Of a DNA stretch of 39,142 bases, positions 11,243 through 35,127 are shown piece by piece. The notes beneath the pieces are model-generated. The model was not told where the DNA came from, ran no database searches, and saw only the letters and a program-made list of their open reading frames with translations. The DNA is taken from positions 1-39,142 of the forward strand of contig JAUTXP010000060.1 in assembly GCA_030837965.1 (NCBI GenBank), written 5' to 3'. Within the stretch, counting starts at the first letter, position 1. Every line of letters starts with the position of its first letter. A program made the translations under genes and the position numbers. The DNA is from Acidimicrobiaceae bacterium. Its GTDB lineage: Bacteria; Actinomycetota; Acidimicrobiia; Acidimicrobiales; JAUTXP01.

Positions 11243-11593
11243 TCATTCCCCGACTCGGGCCCATGCCTCCACCTCGACCCTGGCACCGAGGGGCAGGGCC
11301 GCCACGCCGAGGGCGGAACGGGCCGGCCGGTGGTCGCCGAAGGCCTCCATGTAGGCCGTGTTCATGGCTGCATAGTCGGTCATGTCTGCCAGGAAGACGG
11401 TCGTCTTCACCACGTTTTCGAGCGACGCCCCCTCGCCCTCCAGCAAGGCCTTGACGTTGGCCACGGCCTGGGTGGTCTGGGCCGCGGCGTCGCCCTCGAT
11501 CAGGGCGCCGTCGCGCAGGGCGACCTGCCCTGAGCACACGAGCCACTCACCGGCTCGGACGACTGGTGTGTAGGGACCGACAGGCTTGGTCAT
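11243..11593 (-). CDS. RidA/YjgF/Rid-family enamine/imine deaminase-like protein
   Basis: RidA-type proteins hydrolyse reactive enamine/imine intermediates, such as 2-aminoacrylate, to keto acids and ammonia. The 116-residue protein begins with the family pattern GPYTPVVRAGEWLVCSGQVAL. It retains the C-terminal signature RPARSALGVAALPLGARVEVEAWA, including the substrate carboxylate-binding Arg. It is slightly shorter than the canonical ~125-130 residues. The ATG at 11593 overlaps the TGA of the upstream molybdopterin-fusion gene (ATGA), so the two are coupled. Confidence 0.92.
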   Translation of the reverse strand: MTKPVGPYTPVVRAGEWLVCSGQVALRDGALIEGDAAAQTTQAVANVKALLEGEGASLENVVKTTVFLADMTDYAAMNTAYMEAFGDHRPARSALGVAALPLGARVEVEAWARVGE

Positions 11594-13155
11594 GGGGTTC
11601 CTTTCGTGGGCCAGGTCGATGGCAGGCCGTCGGCCAGCCAGGCCGCGGCGGCCACCGCGGCGAAGACTGCGTCGGAGCCGTTGACGGGCGTGGCGCCCGG
11701 GTGCGGCTCGCGTTGGTCGGTGTCGATGTCGGTGTCCATGTCGACCTCGGTGTCGATGTCGACCTCGACTGCGGGCATGTCCTTGGCCCGCAGGATGCCG
11801 AACGAGCGGATGGTCAGATCGTGGGCCACGCCCTCGTCGTCCACCACGATGCCCTCACGTCGCACCCAGCCCAAGGCCATGTGGGCCGCGCCGATGCAGT
11901 ACGAGCGCAGCACGACCTCGTCGAGGACGGGTCCGCAGGACACGGTGACGCGCAGGGCGCCGGCATCGGTGAAGGCGGCGGTGGCCCGAGCCCCGTTCGG
12001 CGCGGTGATCGACGGGTCCTTGTTCAGGGCGGCCATGAGGATGGCGGCCTCGGCCCAGCCCGCGGCCCGGATGCGCGCCGACGTGGGCGGGCCGGCGACG
12101 TCGACCTCCTCCACAATGAGGTCGGGGGCGGCGGCGCGGATGGCGGCGGCGATGCCGTCGGTGCGCACGACGCGCATAACGCCAGAGCCGTCGTGGTTGA
12201 CGCCCGCCGCGATGGGCGGGCGCTTGGGGCCGAGGCGCACCACGTCCTCGCGCGACAGCAGGACGCGCACCGGCCTGCCGTGCTCGTCGGCCAGGCGCCG
12301 GGCCACGGCGGGAACGGGTGAGTCGGCCTTGCCGCCGAAGGCGCCGCCGTTGGCCAAGGGTGTGACCGGCGTGCCGCCCGGCTCGCACCACGATGCGTCC
12401 GGCTCCAGGTAAGCGGGCTCGACCCAGGACGTCTGAAGGGTGAGGTCCCAGTCGCCCGGCGGCAGGTCGAGGGGCGGGCGGGGGTCGAGCGACGTGCGCC
12501 GCCCTTGTCGCTTGCCCGCCTTGGCCCTGGCCTCAGTGAGCGATTCACCCACGGCCCAGCCGCCCCATTGGTCGGGCACGGCCACGAGGGCGTCGGGCGG
12601 GGCGGTGTCGTCGGCGAAGCCCGCTTGGCCGAGAGCGACGTGGGGGCCGACGGCTTGGGCCACGCCCCCTTCGAGCTCGGCCCGTCGAGTGGCGGCTTCG
12701 AAGTCGCGTTGTGGCGCGGCGGCCGGAGTCTGTTGGCTCTTGTGGGCGACCGCATCGAGGATGGTGCGCCAGCCCGTGCACCGGCACAGGTGGGCGAGCA
12801 AGGCGTCCTCCGGCTTGGAGGTGGAGGCGTGCAGCCGCAGGATGATCCCGGGCGTGCAGAAGCCGCACTGGCTGGCCCCGCATGCGGTGAAGGCGTCGGC
12901 CCAGGACCGGCGGTCGGCGTCGGGCAGGCCGTCGAGGGTGGTCACCTGACGGCCTGCGATTCGGCGGACGGGCGTCACGCAGGCCACGCGGGGGGCGCCG
13001 TCCACCAGCACCGTGCAGCAGCCGCATTGGCCCTGCGGGCTGCACCCGTCCTTGGGGCTGCGCAGGCCGAGTCGATCGCGAAGCGCCTCAAGGAGGGAGG
13101 CCCCGTCGTCGGGCACCTCGACGTCGCGGCCGTCGACGTGAAACCGAACGGGCAC
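11590..13155 (-). CDS. [2Fe-2S] protein fused to a short molybdopterin-binding (xanthine dehydrogenase-like) domain
   Basis: The 521-residue product begins like the small subunit of xanthine dehydrogenase/CO dehydrogenase. A plant-type [2Fe-2S] domain has KDGCSPQGQCGCCTVLVDG at about 37-55, followed by the helical second cluster domain with CGASQCGFCTPG and CRCTGW. After a linker it continues into about 330 residues resembling part of the large subunit, with LANGGAFGGKADSP, RPVRVLLSREDVVRLGPKRPP and a final GSDAVFAAVAAAAWL. Normal large subunits are over 700 residues, so most of the molybdopterin domain is absent. The GTG start at 13155 fits the family N-terminus. It is only 22 bp from the divergent Tat lipoprotein start and is coupled to the RidA gene. 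An Asp-rich repeat (DIDTEVDMDTDIDTDQ) lies near residues 480-495. Confidence 0.8.
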   Translation of the reverse strand: MPVRFHVDGRDVEVPDDGASLLEALRDRLGLRSPKDGCSPQGQCGCCTVLVDGAPRVACVTPVRRIAGRQVTTLDGLPDADRRSWADAFTACGASQCGFCTPGIILRLHASTSKPEDALLAHLCRCTGWRTILDAVAHKSQQTPAAAPQRDFEAATRRAELEGGVAQAVGPHVALGQAGFADDTAPPDALVAVPDQWGGWAVGESLTEARAKAGKRQGRRTSLDPRPPLDLPPGDWDLTLQTSWVEPAYLEPDASWCEPGGTPVTPLANGGAFGGKADSPVPAVARRLADEHGRPVRVLLSREDVVRLGPKRPPIAAGVNHDGSGVMRVVRTDGIAAAIRAAAPDLIVEEVDVAGPPTSARIRAAGWAEAAILMAALNKDPSITAPNGARATAAFTDAGALRVTVSCGPVLDEVVLRSYCIGAAHMALGWVRREGIVVDDEGVAHDLTIRSFGILRAKDMPAVEVDIDTEVDMDTDIDTDQREPHPGATPVNGSDAVFAAVAAAAWLADGLPSTWPTKGTP

Positions 13156-13177
13156 GGCCGCAGGATAGGTTGGCCCG

Positions 13178-14038
13178 GTGCGCGATCCGGTGAGTCGAAG
13201 GTCGTTCCTCCTCGCGTCCGCAGGTGTGGTGGCGGCGACAGCTGCGGCGTGCAAGAAGCAGGACAACGAGATCAAGGTGTCGCCCAAGGACACCGCTGAC
13301 TCGGGGTCGCTGCCGAAGGACTTGAGCCTGGTGGTGGCGTCGTACATCCACGTCACTGGTATCGAGCAGCGGCTGTCGCTGGCGCTGATTCAGGGGACGG
13401 GGAGCTACACGGCCACCGGGCCGGTCGACATCACCATCGACGGCCAGCCCGCCACGGCCGAAGTGCACCGTGAGGGCATCCTGCTGCCGTACTTCTTGCT
13501 GCGACACCGGTTCGACACCACGGGCGTGCACGACATCGAGGCCAAGGTGGGGGGCCGCACGCTGAAGACGGTGGTCGACGTCACCGACCCGGCCGCCACC
13601 AAGGTGCCCTTCCCCGGCAAGCCCATGATCCGAGCGGCCACGCCCACCGTCGCCGACGCCAAGGGCGTGAGCCCGGTGTGCACCCGCAAGCCCGCCTGCC
13701 CGCTGCACGACGTGAGCCTGGACGCGGCGCTCGACGAGCACCGGCCGCTGGCCGTGCTGTTCGCTACGCCCGCCCTGTGCCAGTCCCGGCTGTGCGGGCC
13801 GGTCCTCGACAACCTGCTGGCCGCGCGCGACGAGTTCTCGGCCAAGGTGCGCATGCTGCACGTGGAGATCTACACCGACCTGTCAGGTAAGACCATCACG
13901 CCCGGGGTGACGGCCTACAACCTCGAGTCGGAGCCGTTCCTGTTCCTGGCCGGGGCCGACGGCGTGGTGCGCGAGCGCCTGGACAACGCCTACGACAAGG
14001 CCGAAGTCCGCCAGGCCCTCACCCGCCTGGTCGCCTGA
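13178..14038 (+). CDS. Tat-exported lipoprotein with thioredoxin-like domain
   Basis: The 286-residue protein starts (GTG at 13178) with a twin-arginine motif SRRSFLLASAG and a hydrophobic stretch ending in a lipobox-like AAAC (Cys25). It is therefore predicted to be exported by Tat and anchored as a lipoprotein. Residues 40-150 form a beta-rich domain. Residues 165-286 look thioredoxin-like (LAVLFATPALCQSRLCGPVL, then LHVEIYTD, then EPFLFLAGADGVVRERLD). The Cys pair is C-x4-C rather than CxxC, so redox activity is uncertain. An additional Cys pair lies in CTRKPACPLHD. It diverges from the [2Fe-2S]/molybdopterin fusion gene, suggesting shared control. Confidence 0.75.
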   Translation: MRDPVSRRSFLLASAGVVAATAAACKKQDNEIKVSPKDTADSGSLPKDLSLVVASYIHVTGIEQRLSLALIQGTGSYTATGPVDITIDGQPATAEVHREGILLPYFLLRHRFDTTGVHDIEAKVGGRTLKTVVDVTDPAATKVPFPGKPMIRAATPTVADAKGVSPVCTRKPACPLHDVSLDAALDEHRPLAVLFATPALCQSRLCGPVLDNLLAARDEFSAKVRMLHVEIYTDLSGKTITPGVTAYNLESEPFLFLAGADGVVRERLDNAYDKAEVRQALTRLVA

Positions 14039-23773: not shown

Positions 23774-25039
23774 ATGTCGGAGACCGAGGGTTCAGCGCCG
23801 TCGGGCGGCGACCGGCCGCCGTCCGTCGACGCCCTTGCCCGCGACCTGGCCGACACCGGCCTCCCCCATCCGCTGCTGGTCGACGTGGCCCGCCGGGCCA
23901 TTGCCGACGGCGACGTGGCGGCCGCCCGTTCGCACGCCGAGGCGCTGGGCCGGGCCTTGTTGCAGCCCGTGGTGAACGCCACCGGCGTGCTGCTCCACAC
24001 CAACCTGGGCCGGGCGCCAATGGCCGTCCAGGCCGACGCCCGCTACACCAACTTGGAGCTCGACCTGGCATCGGGCCGACGCGGCTCGCGCTCGGCCCAT
24101 GCCGCTTCCCTGCTGGCCCGGCTGTGCGATGCCGAGGCCGCGCTGGTCGTCAACAACGGGGCCGCGGCGGTGCTGCTGGTGCTGGCCGCGCTGGCCGGTG
24201 GCCGCGACGTGGCCGTGAGCAGGGGCGAGCTGGTCGAGATCGGCGGCGGCTTTCGCGTGCCCGAGGTGCTGGCCCAGTCCGGCGCGCGCCTGGTCGAGGT
24301 GGGCACCACCAACCGCACGCGGCTGGCCGACTACCGCGGGGTCGACGCCGACCTCTACCTCAAGGTCCATCAGTCCAACTACCGCATCGTCGGGTTCACC
24401 GAGAGCGTGTCCGTGCGCGACCTGGCCGAGGCCGTCGACGGCCCGGTGGTGGTGGACTTGGGCAGCGGCCTGATCGACGCGGCCTGCCAGTGGCTTGCGT
24501 CCGGCCCGCCCGCGTGGCTGGCCGACGAGCCCGCGGCCCGACAGGCGTTGGCCGACGGGGCCGCCCTGGTCACCTTCTCCGGCGACAAGCTGTTCGGCGG
24601 TCCCCAGGCGGGCGTCATCGCGGGCCAGAAGGAGTTGGTGGACAGGTGCGCGCGCCACCCGCTGGCCCGGGCTTTGCGCCCTGGACAGTTGGTCTTGAAC
24701 GCCATGCAGCAGACGGCCCTCGCCTATCTGCGCCGCGACGGCATGGCCATCCCGTTCTGGCGCATGGTCTCCGTGCCCGTCGAGGAACTGCGGGCCAGGG
24801 CCGCGTCGATGATCGCGGGAGAGGTGGTGTTGTGCGAGTCCGTGCCGGGCGGCGGGTCGGTGCCCGGCCTGGCGATCCCCTCCGCGGGCGTGGCCTTGGA
24901 CGGCGACCGCACGGCCGAACTGCGGGCCGCCGACCCGCCGATCATCGCCCGCGTGGTCGACGGCAGGACCGTGCTCGACCTTCGCACCGTCGACCCCGCC
25001 GACGACGGCGCCTTGGCCAAGGTGCTGTGCGCGTTGTAG
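23774..25039 (+). CDS. selA: L-seryl-tRNA(Sec) selenium transferase
   Basis: SelA converts seryl-tRNA(Sec) to selenocysteyl-tRNA(Sec) using selenophosphate; it is a PLP enzyme. The 421-residue product has the family features [41 protein letters not shown] and VEVGTTNRT. The PLP-binding Lys272 lies in [14 protein letters not shown]. It is somewhat shorter than the ~460 residues of the E. coli enzyme, mainly at the N-terminus. Its last 13 nt overlap the selB start, so the two are coupled. A selenoprotein gene lies about 8 kb downstream. Confidence 0.96.
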
Positions 25040-26832
25040 CCACCGCAGGCCACGTCGACCACGGCAAGTCGACCCTGGTGCTGGCCCTCACCGGGATGGA
25101 CCCCGACCGCTTCGCCGAGGAGAAGGCCCGGGGCCTCACCATCGACTTGGGCTTCGCATGGGGCACGCTGCCTTCCGGTCAGGAGTTCGCCTTCGTGGAC
25201 GTGCCCGGGCACGTGCGCTTCATCAAGAACATGCTCGCCGGGGTGGGCGCGGTCGACGCCTGCCTGTTCGTGGTGGCAGCCACCGAGGGATGGAAGCCGC
25301 AGTCCGAGGAGCACTTGCGCATCCTCGAATTGCTCGGGGTGCGGGCGGGCGTGGTCGCCCTGACCAAGATGGGACTGGTCGATGACGAGTGGCGTGAGGT
25401 CGCGGCCTTGGACGTGGCCGACCGGGTGGCGGGCACGTTCCTGGCCGACGCCGAGGTGGTGGGAGTCGACGCGGTGGCCGGGGTGGGCCTGGTGGAGTTG
25501 CGCCAGGCGCTCGACCGTCTGTTGACCCGAGTGCCCGGCGCGCTCGACGTGGGCCGGCCCCGGCTGTGGGTCGACCGGTCCTTCGCGGCCAAGGGCTCCG
25601 GCACCGTCGTGACCGGCACGTTGGCGGGCGGTCCGTTGGCGGTCGACGACGACGTGGAGCTGTGGCCGTCAGGTCTTCGTGCTCGGGTCCGCGGGCTGCA
25701 AAGCCACAAGTCGGCGCTCCATCGGGCGGACCCGGGGCGGCGACTGGCCGTCAACCTGGCAGGCATATCGCATCACGATGTGTCGCGGGGCTTTGCCTTG
25801 GTGCGGCCGGGCCAGTGGGCGCCGACCAGGACGGTGGACGTGTCGTTGTCGGTGCTGGCCGCCCTCGACCACGACGTGTCCCGGCGGGGCGCGTACGTGG
25901 CCTACATCGGGTCGGGCGAGCACCCGGTGAAGGTGCGGCTGCTCGGGCGTGCGTCGGCCGTGCGGCCCGGCGAGGTGGGGACGGCCAGACTGCACCTGCC
26001 TCTCCCTTTGCCCCTGCTGCCGGGCGACCGGTTCGTGCTGCGTGAGAGCGGACGGGCCGAGACGGTGGGCGGGGGCGAGGTGCTCGACGTGGCCCCTGTG
26101 CTGGCCGCGGCCAGGGCCGCGCCCGACCGGTCAGTGGCCCGGGTGGTGGCCGAGCGGGGGTGGGTGGAGGCCGACGTCTTGGAGCGGCTGACGGGGACGC
26201 GAGTGGCGCCGAACGTCGGGACCTGGGTGGTCGACCCGGGCGCCCTCGCCGAGCGCCAAGGGCTCTTGGCCGACATGGTGGCCGCCGCCGGGACGCGGGG
26301 CCTGGACGTGGCCGGGCTGGACACCCGAGACCGCCTCGTGCTTGCCACCGTCAGTTCGGTCGTGGTGCGGGACGGCCGGGCCCAGAACGAAAGCGCGGCC
26401 GAGCCGGCGTCGCGCGAGGAGCATCCCTTTCTGCTTGCCCTCAAGGCCTCGCCGTTCTCGCCGCCGTCCCCCGACGGGTTCGATCGGGGCGAGGTGCGGG
26501 ACCTGGTGCGGGCCGGCCTGGTGGTCGAGCGCGACGGCGTCTACTTCGCGGCGGAGGCAGTGGAGGCGGCCGCAGGTACCGTCGCCCGGCTGCTGGCCGA
26601 ACAGGCCGGGCCTCAGGCCCAGGCCGGAGGCCCCCAGGGCGACAGCGGGGCCGAGGGCCTGACCGTTTCCGAAGTGCGGGAGGCGCTGGGCACCAGCCGC
26701 AAGTTCCTGCTCCCTCTGTTGGCCCACCTGGACGCCACCGGCGTGACCCGACGGCGGGGCGACCTCAGGATTGGCGGTCCTCGTCTTCCAACGACTTGGC
26801 CAGGCGGGCCACCGGCAGCACGTTCGTCATGA
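25027..26832 (+). CDS. selB: Selenocysteine-specific translation elongation factor
   Basis: SelB is a GTPase that carries Sec-tRNA to the ribosome and binds the SECIS hairpin with its C-terminal winged helices. The 601-residue protein starts with GTG at 25027. It shows G1 GHVDHGKST (8-16), the switch region [14 protein letters not shown]3 DVPGH, and TKMGLVD in place of NKxD, as usual in SelB. Domains II-III follow, then winged-helix repeats (about 350-590), the last reading [24 protein letters not shown]. The final ~25 residues extend past the usual end and overlap the convergent hydrolase gene by 68 nt. Confidence 0.95.
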
Positions 26833-32335: not shown

Positions 32336-33160
32336 ATGTGGTTTCGGCGTTCCGCTGGGTCGGCCGAGTCGGCCGAGTCGGGCGGGTCGGGCGGGTCAGG
32401 CGGTCAGCCGACCGCCGCCGACCAGCACGCGGCGTCGATCCGGGCCGCGCTGGAAGGGCTGGGAGACACGGTCGTGCGCGAGGTCATGACGCCGCGCGTC
32501 GACGTGGTCGCACTGCGGTCGCCCGTCTCGCCTGAAGACGTGGTGCTCGCGGCCAAGGAGTCCGGGCACTCGCGCTTTCCCGTCTACGAGCAGGATCTGG
32601 ATGACCTGGTCGGGGTGCTGTACGTGAAGGACCTGTTCCGCAGCGGCGGCGTCGTGCGGCTGCGCCAGCCCTTCGTGGTGCCCGAGACTGCGCCCGTGTT
32701 GGCCGTGCTCTCCCAGATGCGGGTCGGTCGCAACGCGTTCGCCGTGGTGGTCGACGAACACGGCGGGGTTGAAGGCGTGTTGACGGTGAAGGACCTCGTC
32801 TCGCAACTTGTCGGTGAGCTGCCCGACGAGTTCGACCGGGCCGAGGAGGCTGAGATCTCCCGGGTCGACGCGTCCCGGTGGCTGGTCGACGGGGCGTGCC
32901 CGGTCGACAGGTTGCAGGAGGAGTTGGGGCCGCTCGGCCTGCGGCTGCCGTCGGGGGAGTACGTGACCGTGGGCGGGTTCCTGTTCGACCGCTTCGGCCG
33001 CATTCCCGGGGAGGGGGACATGCTGGTGTACGGCGGGTGGGAGTTCCGCGTCAGCGAGATGGACCGCCGCCGGATCGCCAAGACTGTGGTGCGCGCCCCC
33101 TCAGGTACGATGGGCGACGGTTCTCCGGCCAGTGCGCCCGCGAGCGCCAACGGGAAGTAG
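32336..33160 (+). CDS. CBS-pair protein with CorC/HlyC transporter-associated domain
   Basis: A 274-residue cytoplasmic protein. A Ser/Gly/Glu-rich N-terminus (residues 6-30, from short DNA tandem repeats) is followed by two CBS domains (about 50-170; REVMTPRVDVVAL, SRFPVYEQDLDDLVGVLYVKDLF, FAVVVDEHGGVEGVLTVKDLV). A CorC_HlyC domain comes next (about 185-265; LPSGEYVTVGGFLFDRFGRIPG). It lacks the DUF21 membrane domain of full-length CorB/CNNM-type transporters and resembles soluble CorC/YbeX. Its last codons and TAG stop lie inside the tRNA-Pro gene. Confidence 0.9.
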   Translation: MWFRRSAGSAESAESGGSGGSGGQPTAADQHAASIRAALEGLGDTVVREVMTPRVDVVALRSPVSPEDVVLAAKESGHSRFPVYEQDLDDLVGVLYVKDLFRSGGVVRLRQPFVVPETAPVLAVLSQMRVGRNAFAVVVDEHGGVEGVLTVKDLVSQLVGELPDEFDRAEEAEISRVDASRWLVDGACPVDRLQEELGPLGLRLPSGEYVTVGGFLFDRFGRIPGEGDMLVYGGWEFRVSEMDRRRIAKTVVRAPSGTMGDGSPASAPASANGK

Positions 33161-33399: not shown

Positions 33400-33828
33400 A
33401 TGACCACTGACCGATTCGCCCGGGGCGTGGCCCTCCTCGGGGCCGTGTTCTGGCTCGTGTTCGGTGTGTGGGCCTTCGTGTCGCCGCACTCGTTCTTCGA
33501 CACGATCGCCACGTTCAAGCCCTACAACAAGCACTTCCTCCACGACGCGGGCGCTTTCCAGATCGGCTTGGGCCTGGCCCTGCTCCTCGGATTGACGCGG
33601 CTCAACACGCTGGCCACGGTGCTGACGGCCAGCGCGGCGGCGTCCGTGTTCCACGAGTTGGCCCACATCCTCGACAGGGACCTGGGCGGCAAGACCACCG
33701 ACCCGATCGGCCTCGGCATCATCGCCCTCCTCACCATCGCAGCCGCGGCCGCGGCGTGGCCTTTGACCGGCCCCGCCTCGAGCCAGCCGCAGCCCCAGCC
33801 GCACCCGAAGCCGAAGGCGAAGCCATGA
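33400..33828 (+). CDS. Small four-helix membrane protein
   Basis: A 142-residue inner-membrane protein with four predicted transmembrane segments (about 8-30, 48-64, 68-87 and 100-122) and a Pro/Lys/Gln-rich tail. The loop after helix 1 has SPHSFFDTIATFKPYNKHFLHDAG, and a HELAHILDRD motif follows helix 3. The pattern is similar to small DUF4345-like membrane proteins; function is unknown. Its TGA overlaps the ATG of the selenoprotein gene (ATGA), so the two are translationally coupled and may act together. Confidence 0.82.
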   Translation: MTTDRFARGVALLGAVFWLVFGVWAFVSPHSFFDTIATFKPYNKHFLHDAGAFQIGLGLALLLGLTRLNTLATVLTASAAASVFHELAHILDRDLGGKTTDPIGLGIIALLTIAAAAAAWPLTGPASSQPQPQPHPKPKAKP

Positions 33829-34370
33829 GGCTCCTGCGCAGGCTGCGCGCCTATCTCCGCATCGCCCGCAAGGCCACCCGCAACCAGAACGACCTGATGA
33901 AGCACCTGGTCCGTCGGCCTGCCATCCTCGCCGCCGTCGGCGGCTACGAGACGGCGGTCATGTTCAGCAACAAGGTCGAGCCCCGCCTCAAGTACCTGGC
34001 TTCCGTGCGGGCGTCGAGCCGGGTCGGCTGCCCCTTCTGACTCGACATCGGCTCTGCCGTGAGCAGAGCGATGGGCGTCGACGACGAGACGCTGGCCGAC
34101 ATCAATTCCTGGCCGCAGAGCGATCGCTTCACTCCCGTCGAACGACTCGGCCTGCAACTGGCCGACGCCATGACGTCGACGCCGGCCGAAGTGCCCGACG
34201 AGCTACGCGAGCAGCTCCTCGAGCATCTCACCCCGACCCAGTTGACCGAGCTGGCCTCGGCCATCGCTTGGGAGAACCACCGGGCCAGGCTCAACCGGGC
34301 CTTGGGCGTGCGGGAAGTCGGCTTCTCGGACGGGGCCTTCTGCGTGCTGCCGCTCCGAGACGACGTGTGA
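33825..34370 (+). CDS. Selenoprotein of the AhpD/carboxymuconolactone decarboxylase-like family (UGA at codon 72 read as Sec)
   Basis: Read conventionally, a frame starting at ATG 33825 stops at TGA 34038-34040. The same frame continues open to a TGA at 34368-34370. The joined 181-residue protein reads as one AhpD-like domain. It has LKYLASVRASSRVGCPF-U-LDIGSA (Cys69, Sec72; normally C-x-x-C), then FTPVERLGLQLADAMTSTP, then LTELASAIAWENHRARLNRALG. The position of TGA at the second redox residue, a SECIS-like hairpin right after it, and selA-selB in the window make Sec insertion far likelier than a pseudogene. AhpD-family proteins are thiol peroxidases or disulfide reductants. It is coupled to the upstream membrane protein gene. 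Confidence 0.93.
34038..34080 (+). promoter_or_regulatory. Sec UGA codon and bacterial SECIS-like stem-loop
   Basis: After the TGA (34038-34040), GCTCTGC (34051-34057) pairs perfectly with GCAGAGC (34063-34069) around the loop CGTGA. The stem extends through ATC/GAT with a bulged G, and CGAC (34043-34046) with GTCG (34077-34080) across an internal bulge. The second loop base, a G, lies 19 nt after the UGA, within the distance known for bacterial SECIS elements bound by SelB. Confidence 0.85.
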
Positions 34371-34452: not shown

Positions 34453-35127
34453 GTGGCGCTCCCGCGCGAAGAGGTAGTGCAGGGCACGGCCGAAGGGCTG
34501 GCCCAGTTCGAGGAGCTGCTCCGCTCCCTGGACGACGAGGCCTGGCAGAAGCCGACGCGCTGCGAAGGCTGGACCGTGGCCGACGTGGCCGCCCATGTGG
34601 TCGGCACCATGACCATGATCACCAACGGCCAACTCCAAGAGCTGACCGACCCCGACCATGTGAACCGCCAGACCGCGGAGCGCAAGGGCCGCACGCCCGC
34701 GCAGTTGGCCGACGAGCTTCGGGACGCGGCCAAGCTCGGCAACGACCTGGTCGGCTCCTTCGACGACGCGGCCTGGGGCGGCCCACCCCCTCTGGAGATC
34801 CCCGGCACTCTGGGCCAGGCCGTCGAGGCCATCTGGTACGACACCTATGTCCACACCGAGGACATCAACGCTGCCACCGGCCGCGCCCCCGAGCGGGGGC
34901 CGGGCCTGAAGGTGGCCGTCAGCCATGTCACCGATGTGCTCGACCAGCAGGGCTGGGGGCCGGCCACGTTCGCATTCGACGGCCTGCCCGAGATCGCCAT
35001 CGGCGGCGGGGGCGGCAAGCAGGTGACCGGCGACCCGCTCACCTTCGTGCTGGTCGCCACGGGCCGAGAAGACCCGTCGGTCCTCGGGCTGGACGACACC
35101 GTCAACATCTACCGGCCCCAACCGTAA
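34453..35127 (+). CDS. DinB/mycothiol-dependent maleylpyruvate isomerase-type protein
   Basis: A 224-residue cytoplasmic protein of the actinobacterial DinB-like family, which uses mycothiol in isomerisations or conjugations. It starts with LPREEVVQGTAEGLAQFEELLRSL and has the family WQKPTRCEGWTVADVAAHVVG motif, whose His is a likely metal ligand. A second metal-site region is IWYDTYVHTEDI, and a C-terminal SCP2-like beta domain follows (about 150-224). The GTG start at 34453 is strongly supported by GGAGG six bases upstream. The palindrome at 34406-34428 and the TetR gene downstream suggest induced expression. Confidence 0.88.
   Translation: MALPREEVVQGTAEGLAQFEELLRSLDDEAWQKPTRCEGWTVADVAAHVVGTMTMITNGQLQELTDPDHVNRQTAERKGRTPAQLADELRDAAKLGNDLVGSFDDAAWGGPPPLEIPGTLGQAVEAIWYDTYVHTEDINAATGRAPERGPGLKVAVSHVTDVLDQQGWGPATFAFDGLPEIAIGGGGGKQVTGDPLTFVLVATGREDPSVLGLDDTVNIYRPQP

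Follow-up and report, generated by a model that had tools for sequence, protein, structure and literature searches.

A CMD/AhpD-fold gene from an Acidimicrobiaceae bacterium with a probable selenocysteine codon that alternates with cysteine among its homologues

Introduction

Selenoproteins with a carboxymuconolactone decarboxylase (CMD) domain and AhpD-like selenoproteins, both with a CxxU motif (U, selenocysteine, Sec), were reported from the Sargasso Sea in 2005 (PMC1088965) and from the GOS data in 2008 (PMC2398784), and they also appear in later reviews (PMC9312934, PMC13188914). As described in those accounts, the CMD-like (PF02627) and the AhpD-like (COG2128/YciW, TIGR01926) sets have the same domain and motif as the gene analysed here, and share with it the use of Sec for the second Cys and a bacterial SECIS element directly downstream. 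CMD/AhpD-like selenoproteins of the CxxU type have thus been known since 2005, and the present gene adds another. It lies in a window (the whole stretch of DNA analysed) of 39,142 nucleotides from an Acidimicrobiaceae genome (assembly GCA_030837965.1, contig JAUTXP010000060.1). We infer, with a probability of about 95%, that positions 33825-34370 encode a single thiol-redox protein of the CMD/AhpD fold, in which the UGA of codon 72 is decoded as selenocysteine.

The branch to which this protein belongs is marked by the sequences CPFULDIGSAV, WENxRARxN and a C-terminal GFSDGAFC; its comparison with the 2005 and 2008 sets is one with their published descriptions. The best match among NCBIfam models is NF053654, GroundWater_YciW (residues 17-162, E = 2.7e-27), a 'YciW-related (seleno)protein' family whose very name indicates selenoproteins. 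The window protein scores 95.7 bits against a curated cutoff of 310 and is therefore not filed under that family. Literature searches for selenoproteins in Acidimicrobiia and for a link between CMD and DUF4345 returned nothing relevant. Genes of this kind are easily misannotated as pseudogenes or as two fragments.

A continuous reading frame across an internal TGA

The gene (33825-34370, forward strand) translates into 181 residues, MRLLRRL...SRVGCPF-U-LDIGSAV...DDV, with one internal TGA, at codon 72 (34038-34040), besides the terminal one. That its own stop is a TGA too counts against reading codon 72 as Sec. The initial annotation had described two frames in the same register split by a single TGA, the first ending in Cys-Pro-Phe and the second starting with LDIGSA, and had assigned both halves to one domain. 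Translation of the interval gives one frame with both motifs in place, and the Pfam CMD model (PF02627) matches across the internal TGA, over residues 32-114, at a score of 40.6 bits (cutoff 23). The expected result of mechanical gene calling was also recovered: the list of open reading frames has a truncated frame ending at 34040 and a second one starting at a GTG (34059-34370). The motif Cys69-Pro-Phe-Sec72, the putative active site compared across 66 homologues below, occupies positions 34029-34040. The genome carries a single copy of the gene.

Selenocysteine and cysteine forms among homologues

The search for homologues covered 59 relatives, the GTDB contigs and, at the ranks of phylum and order, 396 and 397 genomes. 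It gave 66 loci, counting that of the window, with a readable codon opposite Sec72. This codon is TGA in 26 loci, encodes Cys in 40, and is never anything else, a distribution that excludes chance. The proposal that the TGA replaces the second Cys of a C-x-x-C motif, to be checked by aligning position 72, agrees with this alignment, where each of the 66 sequences has one or the other. Two doubts had been raised along with it, that homologues might end before this position and that the TGA might be a base-call error; the 40 Cys homologues continue through the position, and the same TGA is found in 26 homologues that include several phyla.

The closest TGA form is 62% identical (L021), and three others come from MAGs or records of Neomarinimicrobiota, Sumerlaeota and Planctomycetota (Phycisphaerae) (L052, L054 and L055). 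Cys is found in the Nocardioides-type relatives L051 and L053. Further in-frame TGAs within the aligned stretches are confined to L088, L089 and L092, at or just beyond the C-terminal end, where they look like ordinary stops. In a maximum-likelihood tree, the two forms were exchanged four to six times, with at least three of these exchanges forced by well-supported branches, and the clade of the window gene (support 100/99) is itself mixed, with 11 Sec and 4 Cys forms. The 26 Sec and 40 Cys sequences illustrate Cys/Sec exchange cleanly, within a branch that lies outside the cutoffs of existing models.

Weaker CMD matches in the order (L025, L027, L039, L045 and L048) also have TGA at the codon of the second Cys, in the motifs CHLU, CKTU, CGYU, CPTU and CPIU. 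By their sequences they are several further putative Sec-containing CMD subfamilies, so that the use of Sec appears broad in this fold.

Selenocysteine machinery of the genome

The initial annotation had placed selA and selB in the same window, and both were identified on the forward strand: selA (L-seryl-tRNA(Sec) selenium transferase) at about 23774-25039, with an inferred start codon (TIGR00474, 392 bits), and selB (Sec-specific elongation factor) at about 25024-26832, overlapping the end of selA and with an approximate start (TIGR00475, 279 bits). The gene for tRNA-Sec (selC, anticodon TCA) is on contig C30 and selD is on contig C45. The genome therefore has selA, selB, selC and selD, the set expected alongside a bacterial selenoprotein. 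It is predicted to hold at least two selenoprotein genes, because its gene for the alpha subunit of formate dehydrogenase, FdhA (G000:C24:25597-28389, L114), has an in-frame TGA at 1903, in the context QARI-U-HSSTVPG, and a SECIS-like hairpin with the loop GGTCT; by these features FdhA is the second, canonical one. Elsewhere in the window, a frame on the reverse strand (11590-13356) includes a stretch that matches the Fe-S subunit found in enzymes of the xanthine dehydrogenase type, with 'selenium-dependent xanthine dehydrogenase' as top profile at a score far under its cutoff.

Across the homologues, SelB scored over its cutoff in 21 of 23 genomes with a TGA form, against 12 of 27 in which only Cys forms were found (Fisher p = 0.0007, uncorrected for kinship). 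The two TGA-form genomes without SelB over the cutoff are 60% and 68% complete.

These patterns bear on the alternative that survives best, in which the UGA is read as some other amino acid, through near-cognate decoding or suppression by Trp. Suppression of UGA is a general occurrence in bacteria and could in principle act here. But the residue aligned with codon 72 in the forms that lack TGA is always Cys, the sel system of the genome is complete, and the presence of SelB follows the TGA form, which together make such a reading very unlikely. Under the selenocysteine reading, SelB and tRNA-Sec would decode the UGA of codon 72, steered by a hairpin just 3' of it.

A SECIS-like hairpin downstream of the TGA

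A hairpin, GCTCTGC-CGTGA-GCAGAGC, lies at 34051-34069 on the forward strand and is separated from the TGA by ten nucleotides, CTCGACATCG. The published model of the bacterial SECIS asks for a loop of 3-9 nt, a stem of 4-16 bp, a G in the first two positions of the loop, a distance of 16-37 nt from the UGA and a minimum free energy of at most -7.5 kcal/mol (PMC13188914). The window hairpin fits these constraints, with a stem of 7 bp, a 5-nt apical loop (CGUGA, with G in position 2, followed by U) that begins 17 nt past the TGA, and an energy of -16.6 kcal/mol, so that the search for a SECIS proposed by the initial annotation had a positive outcome.

The hairpin is conserved beyond this gene. 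Across an alignment of 17 TGA forms, 98% of the stem stays paired, two pairs having changed on both sides in a compensatory way, and the covariation score exceeds those of all 500 shuffles and of all slid controls. Hairpins that fit the model with a stem of at least 6 bp were found in 23 of 26 TGA forms vs 3 of 40 Cys forms. Compared with synonymous-codon shuffles, folding is stronger in the TGA group than in the Cys group (Mann-Whitney p = 4e-6, uncorrected for kinship); the window's own hairpin is only moderately unusual by this measure (p = 0.066), a point against the Sec reading.

Could the TGA be spurious, a miscalled base, or have arisen recently as a nonsense mutation, in a gene that is truly of the Cys form or is a pseudogene? 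Cys forms, with TGC or TGT, are common in the family and differ from the observed codon by a single base. Yet the TGA recurs across several phyla and many separate genomes, in 26 homologues altogether, these forms carry a hairpin mostly missing from the Cys forms, and the half of the gene downstream of the TGA is fully conserved. With TGA forms in Neomarinimicrobiota, Sumerlaeota and Planctomycetota, an error or a pseudogene is practically excluded. There is scarcely any chance, too, that the locus makes two proteins, an N-terminal fragment stopping at the TGA and another starting at GTG 34059: both frames are present mechanically, but the CMD domain crosses the junction, 40 homologues have a continuous frame with Cys at that point, and the GTG codon sits inside the loop of the conserved hairpin.

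Structure and putative active site

With Sec inserted at residue 72, a redox pair of the C-x-x-Sec type, Cys69-x-x-Sec72, would sit where a helix begins in the AlphaFold2 model (computed with Cys in place of Sec), which is all-helical and has a pLDDT of 82. The model matches crystal structures of CMD/AhpD proteins, namely 7xw1 (TM 0.93 by target length), 2ijc, 2gmy and Bmp8. With the AhpD of M. tuberculosis and the P. aeruginosa AhpD/PA0269 (7xw1, 2ijc, 2o4d), the window protein has in common the fold and the position of the CxxC motif. Its likeness to the debrominase Bmp8 (6ohi, 6ohj; profile match over residues 27-162, TM 0.74) is at the level of the fold, with an identity of about 20%.

The initial annotation had called the protein AhpD- or CMD-like. 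The CMD domain stands, and the protein is of the CMD/YciW type, not an AhpD proper. The proton relay of AhpD comprises what we take to be E118 and H137 of the M. tuberculosis enzyme, the Glu presumably 12 residues before the first Cys and the His 4 after the second. The window gene has Tyr at the corresponding position 57 and Gly at 76, and all 66 sequences have G, N, A or L at the latter. Unlike the M. tuberculosis AhpD, the window protein thus has neither catalytic residue; we rejected the name 'AhpD' for it on this account, and its chemistry may differ from that of AhpD.

Three residues are invariant in the 66 sequences: Cys69, Asp74 (two after Sec) and Arg155. The C-x-x-Sec site is most likely the active site, probably of the peroxidase or disulfide-reductase type. 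In such a scheme, the selenol of Sec72 would attack the oxidant and Cys69 would then resolve the selenenyl-sulfide. A candidate for a third redox Cys is Cys173, shared by 54 of 66 sequences; it belongs to the GFSDGAFC tail, a part of the model with low confidence.

The upstream membrane protein and the gene neighbourhood

Directly upstream, positions 33400-33828 (forward strand) encode a small membrane protein with weak similarity to DUF4345, below the cutoff. The ATG of the selenoprotein gene overlaps its stop codon (ATGA), as also in L062, and the two genes are therefore probably translationally coupled. In 13 of the 66 loci (7 Sec and 6 Cys forms), a homologue of the membrane protein is encoded directly 5' of the CMD gene, and in four loci, all Cys forms, it is fused to CMD in one open frame (L067, L068, L076 and L078). 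The consensus of this family centres on PRxFYxxFP...GPYNEHLxxDAGA...PHxxxH. Among the copies scanned, no Pfam or NCBIfam model scored over its cutoff, except CMD itself in the fusions.

Adjacency and fusion point to a shared function of the two proteins on the membrane side, and the CMD redox protein is probably coupled to this upstream partner. Whether they form a dedicated two-part redox module of the membrane, for Sec and Cys forms alike, is more doubtful, and we regard it as a tentative idea that is rather unlikely as it stands. The membrane partner would in that case anchor the CxxU enzyme or supply it with electrons, sometimes as one fused chain, and such a module would represent a selenoenzyme system that is new to the literature. 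The portions of the published accounts of the 2005 and 2008 CMD/AhpD-like sets on which we drew make no mention of such a neighbour or fusion partner. The conserved gene pair and the natural fusions give a concrete lead to the working partner of this CMD branch.

The genes corC and tetR do not keep their places near the CMD gene as a set among relatives, and an Rfam scan of the window reported only a tRNA-Pro, at 33151. Directly downstream of the CMD gene, positions 34453-35127 (forward strand) encode an MDMPI_N/DinB-like protein, similar to mycothiol maleylpyruvate isomerase; a protein 52% identical to it is also directly downstream in L073, and this neighbour gives a weak hint at mycothiol.
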